DNA of 39,442 nt, taken from contig JACVJK010000011.1 of the NCBI GenBank assembly GCA_015711955.1, positions 1 to 39,442 on the forward strand, given 5' to 3'. The notes below the pieces were generated by a model, which saw nothing but the letters and a program-made list of their open reading frames with translations, was not told the DNA's origin and did no database searches. Positions 14,876-17,844 of this stretch are shown here, piece by piece. Source of the DNA: Actinomycetota bacterium. Lineage in GTDB: Bacteria > Actinomycetota > Geothermincolia > Geothermincolales > RBG-13-55-18. Position 1 is the first letter of the stretch. Each line of letters opens with the position of its first letter. A program made the translations under genes and the position numbers.

Positions 14876-14951
14876 GCCGGCGTAGCTCAGCAGGCAGAGC
14901 GGCTCACTCGTAATGAGCAGGTCAGGAGTTCGAGTCTCCTCGCCGGCTCCA
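14876..14951 (+). tRNA. tRNA-Thr (anticodon CGU)
   Basis: A full cloverleaf can be drawn. The acceptor stem is GCCGGCG/CGCCGGC, the D stem GCTC/GAGC, and the anticodon stem GCTCA/TGAGC with loop CTCGTAA (anticodon CGT at 14909-14911). The variable loop is 5 bases, the T stem AGGAG/CTCCT with loop TTCGAGT, the discriminator base is T, and CCA is encoded at 14949-14951. All stems pair perfectly. It reads ACG codons. A run of six T follows at once. It may be co-transcribed with the oxidoreductase operon, which ends 13 bases upstream. Confidence 0.97.
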
Positions 14952-15211: not shown

Positions 15212-15518
15212 GCCATTGACCCGACTTCGCCTTCCGTGCCCGACCGGGGCTTCGTCGAAGGCACTGGTCGCTTTGTGGGGTGCCTGCCGCGGGGCGGAAG
15301 CGACGTCCTCTGTTTTTCGCTCGTCCTGATGACCGTCCGCCGACTTGGTCGTAATAAGCGGTGGCGACGAGGCTGCGCCGTTCCCCCGCCCTTTTCACCG
15401 CTGGCCCGCGGCGGGGGACCGTTCGCCGAAAGGAGCGGATCACCCCTCCCGGCCCTGTCGATTTAGGAAGCGAGAGCCCAGAAACCCCTGAGATTTCGAG
15501 AAAAGGAGGCGATGAGAG
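15212..15518. other. Intergenic leader of the surface-protein locus
   Basis: This 307-base gap has no supported ORF. It contains a perfect 9-bp inverted repeat, TCCCCCGCC (15382-15390) and GGCGGGGGA (15410-15418), with a 19-base loop. This lies about 100 bases before the secreted-protein gene. No clear promoter hexamers were found. Confidence 0.4.
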
Positions 15519-16031
15519 GTGAAAGGGAAGATGAGGAAAGTGGGGCTCCTGCTGGGGGTCCTGGGGGTGCTGGTGATGTGCATGGGAGGGGCGGCCTACG
15601 GTGAAGTGGAACGGGGCGTGACCGTATCCGCCAATGTCCTGCCGGTGATCCGCCTCACCGTCTCGCCCGATAAGGTGGACTTCGGGAGCATGGACCCCGA
15701 GAACCCATCCCGCACGGTCGCGTTAGGGGCCACCGTGTCCAGCAACCGCTACTGGGAGCTGACGGTGACCAAGGACGGGGACCTTTATAATGAGGAAGAG
15801 AACTACAGCATCCCCTCATCCCAGCTGACCTTCAGCGTGACTTCCTCTGACCAGAGGGTCACCTCCACCGGAAGCGGTGAGTTCGGGACCGGCCCGAACG
15901 GCACCCTCGTGGCGGCGGGGAGGCGGGGCGGCAACATCGGCCTCACAGTGAACTACCGGCTGGTGATCACCTGGGACGACCCGCCGGGCCAGTACTCCGC
16001 CACCCACACCTACACCGCCATGCAGCCGTGA
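15519..16031 (+). CDS. Secreted WxL-like surface protein
   Basis: This 170-residue protein has a clear signal peptide (basic MKGKMRK, hydrophobic core, cleavage near AAYG, residues 25-28). The mature part is a predicted beta-sandwich. It opens with a VTVSANVLPVIRLTV strand pair, then a VDFG turn (53-56), then a Trp-x-Leu motif WEL (79-81) followed by TVTKDG. It ends with a strand that closes GQYSATHTYT. This order resembles the WxL domain of Gram-positive cell-wall proteins, but it is shorter and the second WxL motif is not obvious. No sortase signal or transmembrane helix is seen, so it is secreted or wall-bound. The GTG start at 15519 follows AAAAGGAGG by 9 bases. A strong terminator follows, and a DUF916-like gene is next. 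Confidence 0.7.
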   Translation: MKGKMRKVGLLLGVLGVLVMCMGGAAYGEVERGVTVSANVLPVIRLTVSPDKVDFGSMDPENPSRTVALGATVSSNRYWELTVTKDGDLYNEEENYSIPSSQLTFSVTSSDQRVTSTGSGEFGTGPNGTLVAAGRRGGNIGLTVNYRLVITWDDPPGQYSATHTYTAMQP

Positions 16032-16043
16032 GAGGAAGGGGTT

Positions 16044-16080
16044 GGGCCCGGGGCCCCGGCCCCGGGCCCTTTTCCTTTTT
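16044..16080 (+). terminator. Intrinsic terminator after the WxL-like gene
   Basis: GGGCCCGGGG and CCCCGGGCCC form a perfect 10-bp stem with a 6-base loop. TTTTCCTTTTT follows directly. It lies 12 bases after the stop codon. The DUF916-like gene downstream therefore probably has its own promoter or relies on read-through. Confidence 0.85.
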
Positions 16081-16257
16081 CCAAGCCATAACGCGACAGA
16101 CGAGTTCCGAGGTCCGCAAGTCCTCGCTCGAGATCGACCCTTTTCGGCCCGTGATCGAACGCCGCCAAGGGATAAAAGAGGCATACAAGGGAGAAGGGAA
16201 TCGAATCGGTGGGGAAGAAAAACCCCTTGAGGCCCGAACCCGCCCGGACGATATAGC

Positions 16258-17229
16258 ATGGAGATGAAGGCGATAACGGCTCTGGTATTGGTGTTGCTCC
16301 TGGCCCTCATGGGCCTCCCGCCCCAGGAGGCCTCCGCACAGGCCTTCGACCTCACCGTGCTTCCCGCCAAGAACGAGATCACCGCCGCGCCGGGCACGGC
16401 GCAGGAGTTCACCATCACCGTGCGCAACCACGCCGCGGAGGCCATGGACATCAAGGTATACCCCATGGACTACCACGTGACCCCGGAAAACCAGTTCGTC
16501 TTCCAGGAACCGGGCCACTACACCTACTCCTGCGCCACCTGGCTCCGCTTCCCGCGGGAGGTGCTGCCCATGGGCCCCAACTCCGAGGCCCGACTGCCGG
16601 TGCGGGTGGAGGTGCCCCCCGACGCCGAGCCGGGGGGGCACTACGCGGTGGTGTTCTTCGAGAAGGTGCTCACCCCGGAGGAGATCGCCACCGGGGCCCA
16701 GCTGGCACCCCGGGTGGGAGCCCTGGTGCTCCTCACCGTGCCCGGGGAGATCGTCCGGGAGGGGAGGATAAACTCCTTCCGGGTGGAAAGCGACTTCCTC
16801 TCCCTCTGGGGGCCTTCGGAGGCCAAGAGGGAGGGCTTCCCGGTGCGCTCCCTCCGCTACCGCCTGGAGGTGGAGAACCCGGGCAACGTGCACATCACGG
16901 TCAAGGCCTTCCTCCGCTACCGGCCGCTCTTCGGCCTCGGGCGGGGCGAGGTGGAGCTGGGGGAGATGACCATCCTGCCCGGGACGGTGCGCGTCTTCGA
17001 GGGCCTCCTTCCCGACCCCCCCGCCTTCGGGGTCTACCGGGCCGAGGCGCAGATCCTTTACGGCAAGGACCTCTTCACCTTCGACGTGGAGAGGAGGGCG
17101 TCCGCCGGTTTCTGGGTCATCCCGGTGCTGTGGATCGTCATCTTCGCCGCCCTGGCGGCGGGCCTCTACTGCTTGCTGCGCAGGCTTCGGGGCAGGATAC
17201 CCTGGAGGATCCGGCTGGAGAGGAAGTAG
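16258..17229 (+). CDS. DUF916-like membrane-anchored surface protein (WxL-interacting type)
   Basis: 323 residues. A signal peptide (residues 1-28, ending ASAQA) is followed by an Ig-like domain beginning FDLTVLPAKNEITAAPG. VPPDAEPGGHYAVVFFE (about 119-135) is a strong marker of DUF916 and related WxL-interacting proteins. A second beta domain covers about 190-285. A C-terminal helix (about 293-315) ends in a basic tail that stays inside the cell. The architecture matches the anchor partner of WxL proteins, which are thought to bind peptidoglycan and the WxL protein. Starts at ATG 16258 or 16264 both have weak ribosome sites. It lies 226 bases after the secreted WxL-like gene, beyond a terminator. 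Confidence 0.75.
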   Translation: MEMKAITALVLVLLLALMGLPPQEASAQAFDLTVLPAKNEITAAPGTAQEFTITVRNHAAEAMDIKVYPMDYHVTPENQFVFQEPGHYTYSCATWLRFPREVLPMGPNSEARLPVRVEVPPDAEPGGHYAVVFFEKVLTPEEIATGAQLAPRVGALVLLTVPGEIVREGRINSFRVESDFLSLWGPSEAKREGFPVRSLRYRLEVENPGNVHITVKAFLRYRPLFGLGRGEVELGEMTILPGTVRVFEGLLPDPPAFGVYRAEAQILYGKDLFTFDVERRASAGFWVIPVLWIVIFAALAAGLYCLLRRLRGRIPWRIRLERK

Positions 17230-17616
17230 GGGCCTTTCGGGCTTCCCCGTTTCCCCACCCTCTTGTCAGGCGAAAGGCCGGAAGGTCACCGGGGGTCATC
17301 CACGAGGTCGCGCTCTCCGTCTACCTTTCTCGCTTTGTGGGGACCGCTCACCTTTTAAGGTGGTGGGGAAGGGAATCGCGCGCATCGTCCTTGAGGGGGG
17401 CGTAGGAGGAACGGGCGACATGAGATACCTGCTCTGCCGGCTTTGGTCTTTGTTTTCAGGCGATAACCCGGGAAATGGAGAGGGATTAAAGAAGTGGGAC
17501 CGCGGCCGGAGGCCGCGGTCCCCGGAAAGAAGGGGCGTCGGAGGGGATTCGGTCGATTCGGTCAAGCCCTTCTCACATGGCCCGCTCTCCTTTCCCTCGC
17601 CGAGGCGCCGCCGTCA
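17230..17616. other. Convergent intergenic region
   Basis: This 387-base gap has no supported ORF. CACCTT-TT-AAGGTG (17349-17362) is a small inverted repeat. The long hairpin at 17496-17522 is listed separately. Confidence 0.45.
17496..17522 (-). terminator. 12-bp perfect hairpin, likely terminator of the minus-strand secreted gene
   Basis: GGGACCGCGGCC and GGCCGCGGTCCC pair perfectly around a 3-base loop. Read on the minus strand it is followed by ACTTCTTTAA, a broken U tract. It lies 95 bases beyond the stop of the minus-strand gene and may act in both directions. The weak U tract lowers confidence. Confidence 0.5.
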
Positions 17617-17844
17617 TCAAAGGGGCACCACCGTGGTCGTGCCTTGGCAGGTCAAAGTGGCCACCGGCACGTTGCTCCGCACCGTGCCGTCGGGGAGGAC
17701 CCGGATGCAGGTCCTCACCGTCACCCGCACGGTGACCCCGGCGGAGCTTCCGGCCAGGGCGGGGACGCAGGCGGTATAGACCGAAAGAACCGCCACGAGG
17801 ACCGTCACCGCTATCAACGCCATCCCTAGCGTCCTGGCCGGCAT
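17617..17844 (-). CDS. Short secreted protein related to the WxL-like protein
   Basis: 75 residues. The track opens much further upstream, but AAAGGAGG lies 8 bases before the ATG at 17844, and that start gives a perfect signal peptide (MPARTLGMALIAVTVLV, cleavage near PALAG). The mature peptide is only about 43 residues. Its opening GVTVRVTVRTCIRV resembles the start of the WxL-like protein encoded at 15519 (GVTVSANVLPVIRL). Two mature cysteines, C46 and C66, could form a disulfide. There is no WxL motif or anchor. It may be a minimal surface or secreted factor of the same locus. No known family is recognised. Confidence 0.65.
   Translation of the reverse strand: MPARTLGMALIAVTVLVAVLSVYTACVPALAGSSAGVTVRVTVRTCIRVLPDGTVRSNVPVATLTCQGTTTVVPL

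Follow-up and report, generated by a model that had tools for sequence, protein, structure and literature searches.

In gut Firmicutes, WxL systems have been described as tools that act at the cell surface in virulence and host binding (PMC10599100). In these bacteria the genes are arranged in clusters with the order large WxL protein, small WxL protein, WxLIP (PMC10599100, PMC9772566). For the WxLIP-WxL pair of Enterococcus faecium, complementation of beta-strands was predicted with AlphaFold, and the transmembrane helix of WxLIP has been proposed to enter host membranes (PMC10599100). Among the papers searched by title and abstract, none was relevant to WxL in Actinobacteria or to WxL with donor strands.

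Here we describe a divergent locus of this type in an actinobacterial genome. It lies within a contig fragment of 39,442 nucleotides, the whole of which is called the window below, and it contains three genes, A, B and C, all confirmed as open reading frames. Genes A and B constitute a real, conserved, divergent actinobacterial system of the WxL/WxLIP type. The relationship to WxL and DUF916 suggested in a preliminary description of the window is correct, with considerably stronger support for B than for A.

The locus and its proteins

Gene A (15519..16031, plus strand, GTG start) is preceded by the ribosome-binding site AGGAGG (15504..15509, plus strand), read from the sequence, and encodes a secreted small WxL-like protein of 170 amino acids with a signal peptide at approximately residues 1-28. 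It is followed by an intrinsic terminator (16044..16080, plus strand) found by consensus scan, where an 11-bp perfect G+C stem (16044-16054 / 16059-16069) precedes a T tract. Gene B (16258..17229, plus strand) starts after an intergenic gap of 226 bp and encodes a WxLIP-like protein of 323 amino acids. Terminator-like hairpins are located 3' of A in several relatives too, and thus A may be produced in excess of B. Gene C (17617..17844, minus strand) encodes a secreted microprotein of 75 amino acids, about 43 in the mature form. It was initially listed as a third small secreted protein of the cluster. The protein is present, but its gene is on the minus strand, convergent with B, and thus outside the A-B transcription unit. 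There is no convincing LPXTG protein near the A-B locus, as had been noted before; the source genome does encode two sortases. A tRNA-Thr gene (CGT; window 14876-14951) is situated between genes resembling 2-oxoacid:ferredoxin oxidoreductase and the A-B locus.

Protein B can be assigned with high confidence as a homologue of WxLIP (DUF916+DUF3324). This follows from the fold match, the profile-profile comparison and the architecture, which bear out the earlier reading of B as a membrane-anchored DUF916-like partner. In the AF2 model (pLDDT 86), a signal helix leads into two beta-sandwich domains, and a transmembrane helix follows at residues 290-313. Among 350,542 PDB chains searched with Foldseek, the best match of this model is the E. 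faecium WxLIP 9i25_C (E 9e-12; 277 columns covering both domains), and 9i1y_A ranks second. Independently of the fold search, EfmWxLIP1 was top-ranked, weakly (E 0.11), in a profile search of PDB sequences. Comparison by hhalign with an alignment of Firmicutes WxLIPs built from annotated plasmid loci gave 97.1% over 225 columns; for mature B the score was 62.9, the maximum of 100 shuffles being 22.6.

The N-terminal domain of B (approximately residues 29-165; 16342..16752, plus strand) is the equivalent of DUF916 / WxLIP_PGBD, and the second beta-sandwich (approximately residues 166-286; 16753..17115, plus strand) that of DUF3324 / WxLIP_HBD. They are followed by the transmembrane helix and a strongly basic C-terminal tail, presumably cytoplasmic (17116..17226, plus strand). 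The signal peptide and the C-terminal helix are also seen in hydropathy and predicted helices. A net-basic segment after a transmembrane helix usually marks a cytoplasmic tail; it is present in 17 of 18 B relatives, the exception being L035. The motif NQIDKxxxYFDLK, known from the WxLIP N-terminus (PMC10599100), is absent from B, which has FDLTVLPAKNEITAAPG.

Searches with the Pfam WxL and DUF916 models, proposed earlier as a check, matched neither A nor B above the cut-off. For B, PF06030 scored 12.4 bits versus the curated 27.3, and sub-threshold matches to this model occur in most B-bearing genomes of the class (best 5.6e-4, always under the cut-off). PF13731 (WxL) did not match A above the cut-off, and across the class genomes the Pfam WxL model found nothing convincing. 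Even at E 10, none of the three proteins had more than noise-level matches in Pfam and NCBIfam.

Several variants of B were observed. In genome G025 it is split across two overlapping frames (L039:9158-10242), a frameshift that is either real or a sequencing error. A partial duplicate of the transmembrane region directly follows B in G019, a genome of the same genus (L025:9648-9941). Contig C36 of the source genome (G000) carries a stand-alone short B paralogue of 204 amino acids with one beta domain, a transmembrane helix and no A-like neighbour (L086:4704-5315).

Protein A is, judging from its sequence, probably a divergent WxL relative outside the family definition. The VDFG (residues 53-56) and Trp-x-Leu (W79-E80-L81) motifs pointed out in the preliminary description are real. 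W-x-L arises in 15.5% of shuffles of A (170 residues, two of them Trp), and thus the bare motif is weak evidence by itself. It is the conservation across relatives that raises the first motif above chance: its W is retained in 37 of 39 relatives and Leu at +2 in 29 of 39. The second W is absent from all 39 A-like domains, being replaced by Y (28), F (8) or C (3), so that A does not have the two Trp-x-Leu motifs of the family; its second motif region is YSATHTYTA, with Y165 in place of W. The D-R pair before motif 1 and the D-R-G turn are absent as well. The loss of W is not unique to A, since L150, a Firmicutes protein weakly recognised as WxL, has Y in both motifs.

Profile-profile comparison of A with Firmicutes small WxL proteins gave 92.5%. 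Both motif regions are aligned, W79-E-L with the first WxL and YSATHTYTA with the second-motif segment YxTTLTWxL. The mature domains alone score 34.4 (61.7%), exceeding the maximum of 21.8 in 200 shuffles; the cross-controls A1-A4 and A2-A3 gave 5% and 1%. When distant members were added to A and large WxL proteins to the Firmicutes set, the profile score went down to 67.6%, and thus the link depends on the close families. Streptomyces-like proteins recognised as WxL match the Firmicutes WxL and not profile A1, so they provide no stepping-stone sequence between A and WxL. The WxL identity of the 170-residue protein stands in the sense of a divergent relative found by profile-profile comparison, and fails by the Pfam model and the second motif.

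One alternative is that B is a true WxLIP homologue and A an unrelated secreted beta-sandwich, for instance DUF4402-like, occupying the neighbouring slot. Pfam WxL misses A, and one relative of A matches DUF4402 weakly (E 0.005). The model of A is beta-rich with moderate confidence (pLDDT 71), and its top 50 PDB matches are generic beta folds with no WxL among them; the solved WxL domain was not retrieved with this model. However, the co-linear match to the WxL profile exceeds all shuffles and the first WxL motif is conserved. Moreover, A has the gene position of a small WxL protein, and there are large proteins that end in an A-like domain, an arrangement known from WxL clusters. We consider an unrelated A unlikely.

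Spread of the pair and related proteins

Of the 31 class genomes searched, B was found in 17 (search with B) and A in 18 (A profile). Gene A is directly upstream of B in all 14 class genomes with an assembled junction. The genomes G020, G027 and G006, where B starts within about 260 bases of the contig start, were left out of this count. An A-like gene also precedes B at six loci outside the class (L087, L088, L089, L090, L093, L097), so the gene pair that was to be sought in related genomes is indeed found there. The proteins are 65% (A), 81% (B) and 58% (C) identical to those of a same-genus relative, and the divergence of A and B from this relative is highest at third codon positions. At L037, three tandem A genes are located ahead of one B.

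Homologues of B are present in 76 of 397 sampled Actinomycetota genomes, and the statement that such clusters are known mainly from Firmicutes needs to be amended. In the tree of B, the class falls into its two main families, with 17 of 18 class sequences in one supported clade; this suggests that inheritance has been mostly vertical. Firmicutes and actinobacterial WxLIPs lie on opposite sides of a fully supported split in the unrooted tree, which supports the suggested separate branch.

The system was initially described as minimal and reduced. This is true only locally; the window contains one A and one B. Elsewhere, many of these genomes encode proteins of 555-1238 amino acids with a C-terminal A-like domain. 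There are two in the source genome: one at C53, which contains a Big_5 domain and has a short transmembrane-bearing B paralogue ahead of it, and another at C4. In G020, G028 and G030 a large A-domain protein adjoins the A-B locus (A of G020 is lost at the contig end). A full three-gene cluster, mirroring the large WxL - small WxL - WxLIP cluster of Firmicutes, is found at L089: a gene for a subtilase that ends in an A-like domain is followed directly by those for a small A-like protein and B. The relatives L033, L040 and L089 encode A-like proteins. Thus the system is not truly minimal. The subtilase (L089:5278-8545) is a candidate non-covalently wall-anchored protease.

Relatives of C were found by iterated search at 13 other loci, mostly convergent with B. 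The mature consensus is roughly VSVxVxIxPCVRVxxDGTVxSNVxV...LTVIAR. It aligns with the first (N-terminal) strand of A with the score 18.6, the shuffle maximum being 15.4. As this likeness is slight and merely 16 columns align, C was rejected as a fragment of A, and the similarity is kept as a hint. Possibly, C belongs to this system as a peptide that carries a strand.

Proposed mechanism and a possible diderm link

The reading that we favour, and think rather likely, is that A-B represents a divergent WxL/WxLIP pair of actinobacteria, in which B holds A non-covalently at the surface by strand complementation. As its predicted topology suggests, B would be exported and kept in the cell's own membrane by the C-terminal helix and the basic cytoplasmic tail. 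By homology with the E. faecium pair, the DUF916-like domain of B would bind A, most likely lending a beta-strand that completes the A sandwich. A would thereby be retained at the wall-membrane interface with no need for a sortase. The large proteins with C-terminal A-like domains would be displayed likewise; of their two loci in the source genome, C53 includes a shortened B paralogue. The microprotein C is a conserved companion, possibly strand-bearing.

An alternative mechanism makes A a pilin-like subunit and B its chaperone, that is, a monoderm cousin of chaperone-usher systems. B would donate a strand to complete A, the A subunits would then polymerise into a fibre by donor-strand exchange, and C would act as a cap or free strand. 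After WxLIP, B is closest in fold to the chaperones CfaA and CsuC, the weak fold matches of the A model include Dra/AfaE pilins and Ena2A fibres, and the tandem A genes of L037 could be viewed in the same light. In addition, 2 of 60 sampled Methylomirabilota genomes encode a B homologue without a transmembrane helix (93 bits with the B profile; 99.2%), and the gene order there, conserved between the two, is small secreted beta protein, B homologue, barrel-like protein of ~830 amino acids, small secreted beta protein. The reading of the ~830-residue protein as an outer-membrane barrel is made from its sequence; Pfam gave no match for it. However, B is membrane-anchored and ushers are absent in monoderms. 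No usher was seen near the A-B pair, and the barrel-like gene occurs solely beside the Methylomirabilota B homologue. The small secreted proteins of these diderms were considered as A homologues and rejected (10%, short alignment). Such a fibre seems improbable. The Methylomirabilota clusters (L024:3421-8896, L160:1036-5822) are in themselves a possible undescribed chaperone-usher-like system.

The observations suggest that B homologues and chaperone-usher-like systems share an origin. One scenario, doubtful at present, is that WxL/WxLIP pairs represent, in monoderms, an ancient system of chaperones and subunits. Proteins of the B type would then come from (or be ancestral to) diderm chaperones that are found together with an usher-like barrel and small beta subunits; the actinobacterial A-B-C locus would be an intermediate form in which C supplies a free strand for complementation.

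That A and B are chance neighbours with no functional link, as the 226-bp gap and the terminator between them in the window might indicate, is contradicted by their adjacency in every testable class genome, as well as in several families elsewhere in the phylum, and is extremely improbable.

For the surface-display pair preferred here, WxLIP homologues with a transmembrane helix and strongly basic tail across deep Actinomycetota, lineages known from metagenomes, suggest that the helix serves as an anchor in the membrane of the cell itself and that WxLIP originally functioned in non-covalent surface display rather than host contact. Sequences bridging WxLIP and diderm chaperone-like proteins make the origin of WxL testable. 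The pair is missed by standard databases, yet recurs over much of Actinomycetota.

Comparison with known systems

The WxLIP of E. faecium, EfmWxLIP1 (PF06030 + PF11797; PDB 9i25/9i1y), resembles B in the signal peptide, the order of domains and the C-terminal transmembrane helix. The lengths are similar (337-365 versus 323 amino acids), and the WxLIP gene, like B, is directly 3' of a small WxL-type gene, an arrangement also seen in several Firmicutes loci. On the other hand, the identity is about 14%, and B is under the Pfam cut-offs and without NQIDKxxxYFDLK. The chaperones CfaA and CsuC share with B two Ig-like domains (fold matches with E 5e-11 and 1e-9), but are periplasmic, soluble and paired with ushers, whereas B is membrane-anchored in a monoderm.

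The Firmicutes small WxL proteins (PF13731) are, like A, small and secreted, with a C-terminal domain in which the first W-x-L is followed by a beta-strand, and with the shared end segment G-x-Y-x-A-x-x-x-Y/W. A differs in the substitution of the second W by Y/F/C, in lacking the D-R-G turn, and in being shorter (~140 amino acids in the mature form).

The Streptomyces-like WxL/DUF916 pairs (L098-L100) have in common with A-B the phylum and the type of partner; in L099 and L100, DUF916 scores above the cut-off of Pfam. However, their WxL domains match the Firmicutes WxL (85.9-95.1%), are not matched by the A profile and belong to another branch of the tree. At L099:5583-8264, in a 7-Mb actinomycete, a protein with an HtaA domain (haem-binding type) and a C-terminal WxL-like domain is encoded directly upstream of the DUF916 protein.

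Finally, compared with the Csc / WxL clusters of Lactobacillus, Enterococcus and Listeria, the cluster in the window has no large WxL and no LPXTG protein, and has the convergent microprotein C in addition. Common to both are the core of a small WxL protein and WxLIP and the large proteins with C-terminal WxL-like domains, which are here encoded elsewhere in the genome or contiguously with the pair in relatives.
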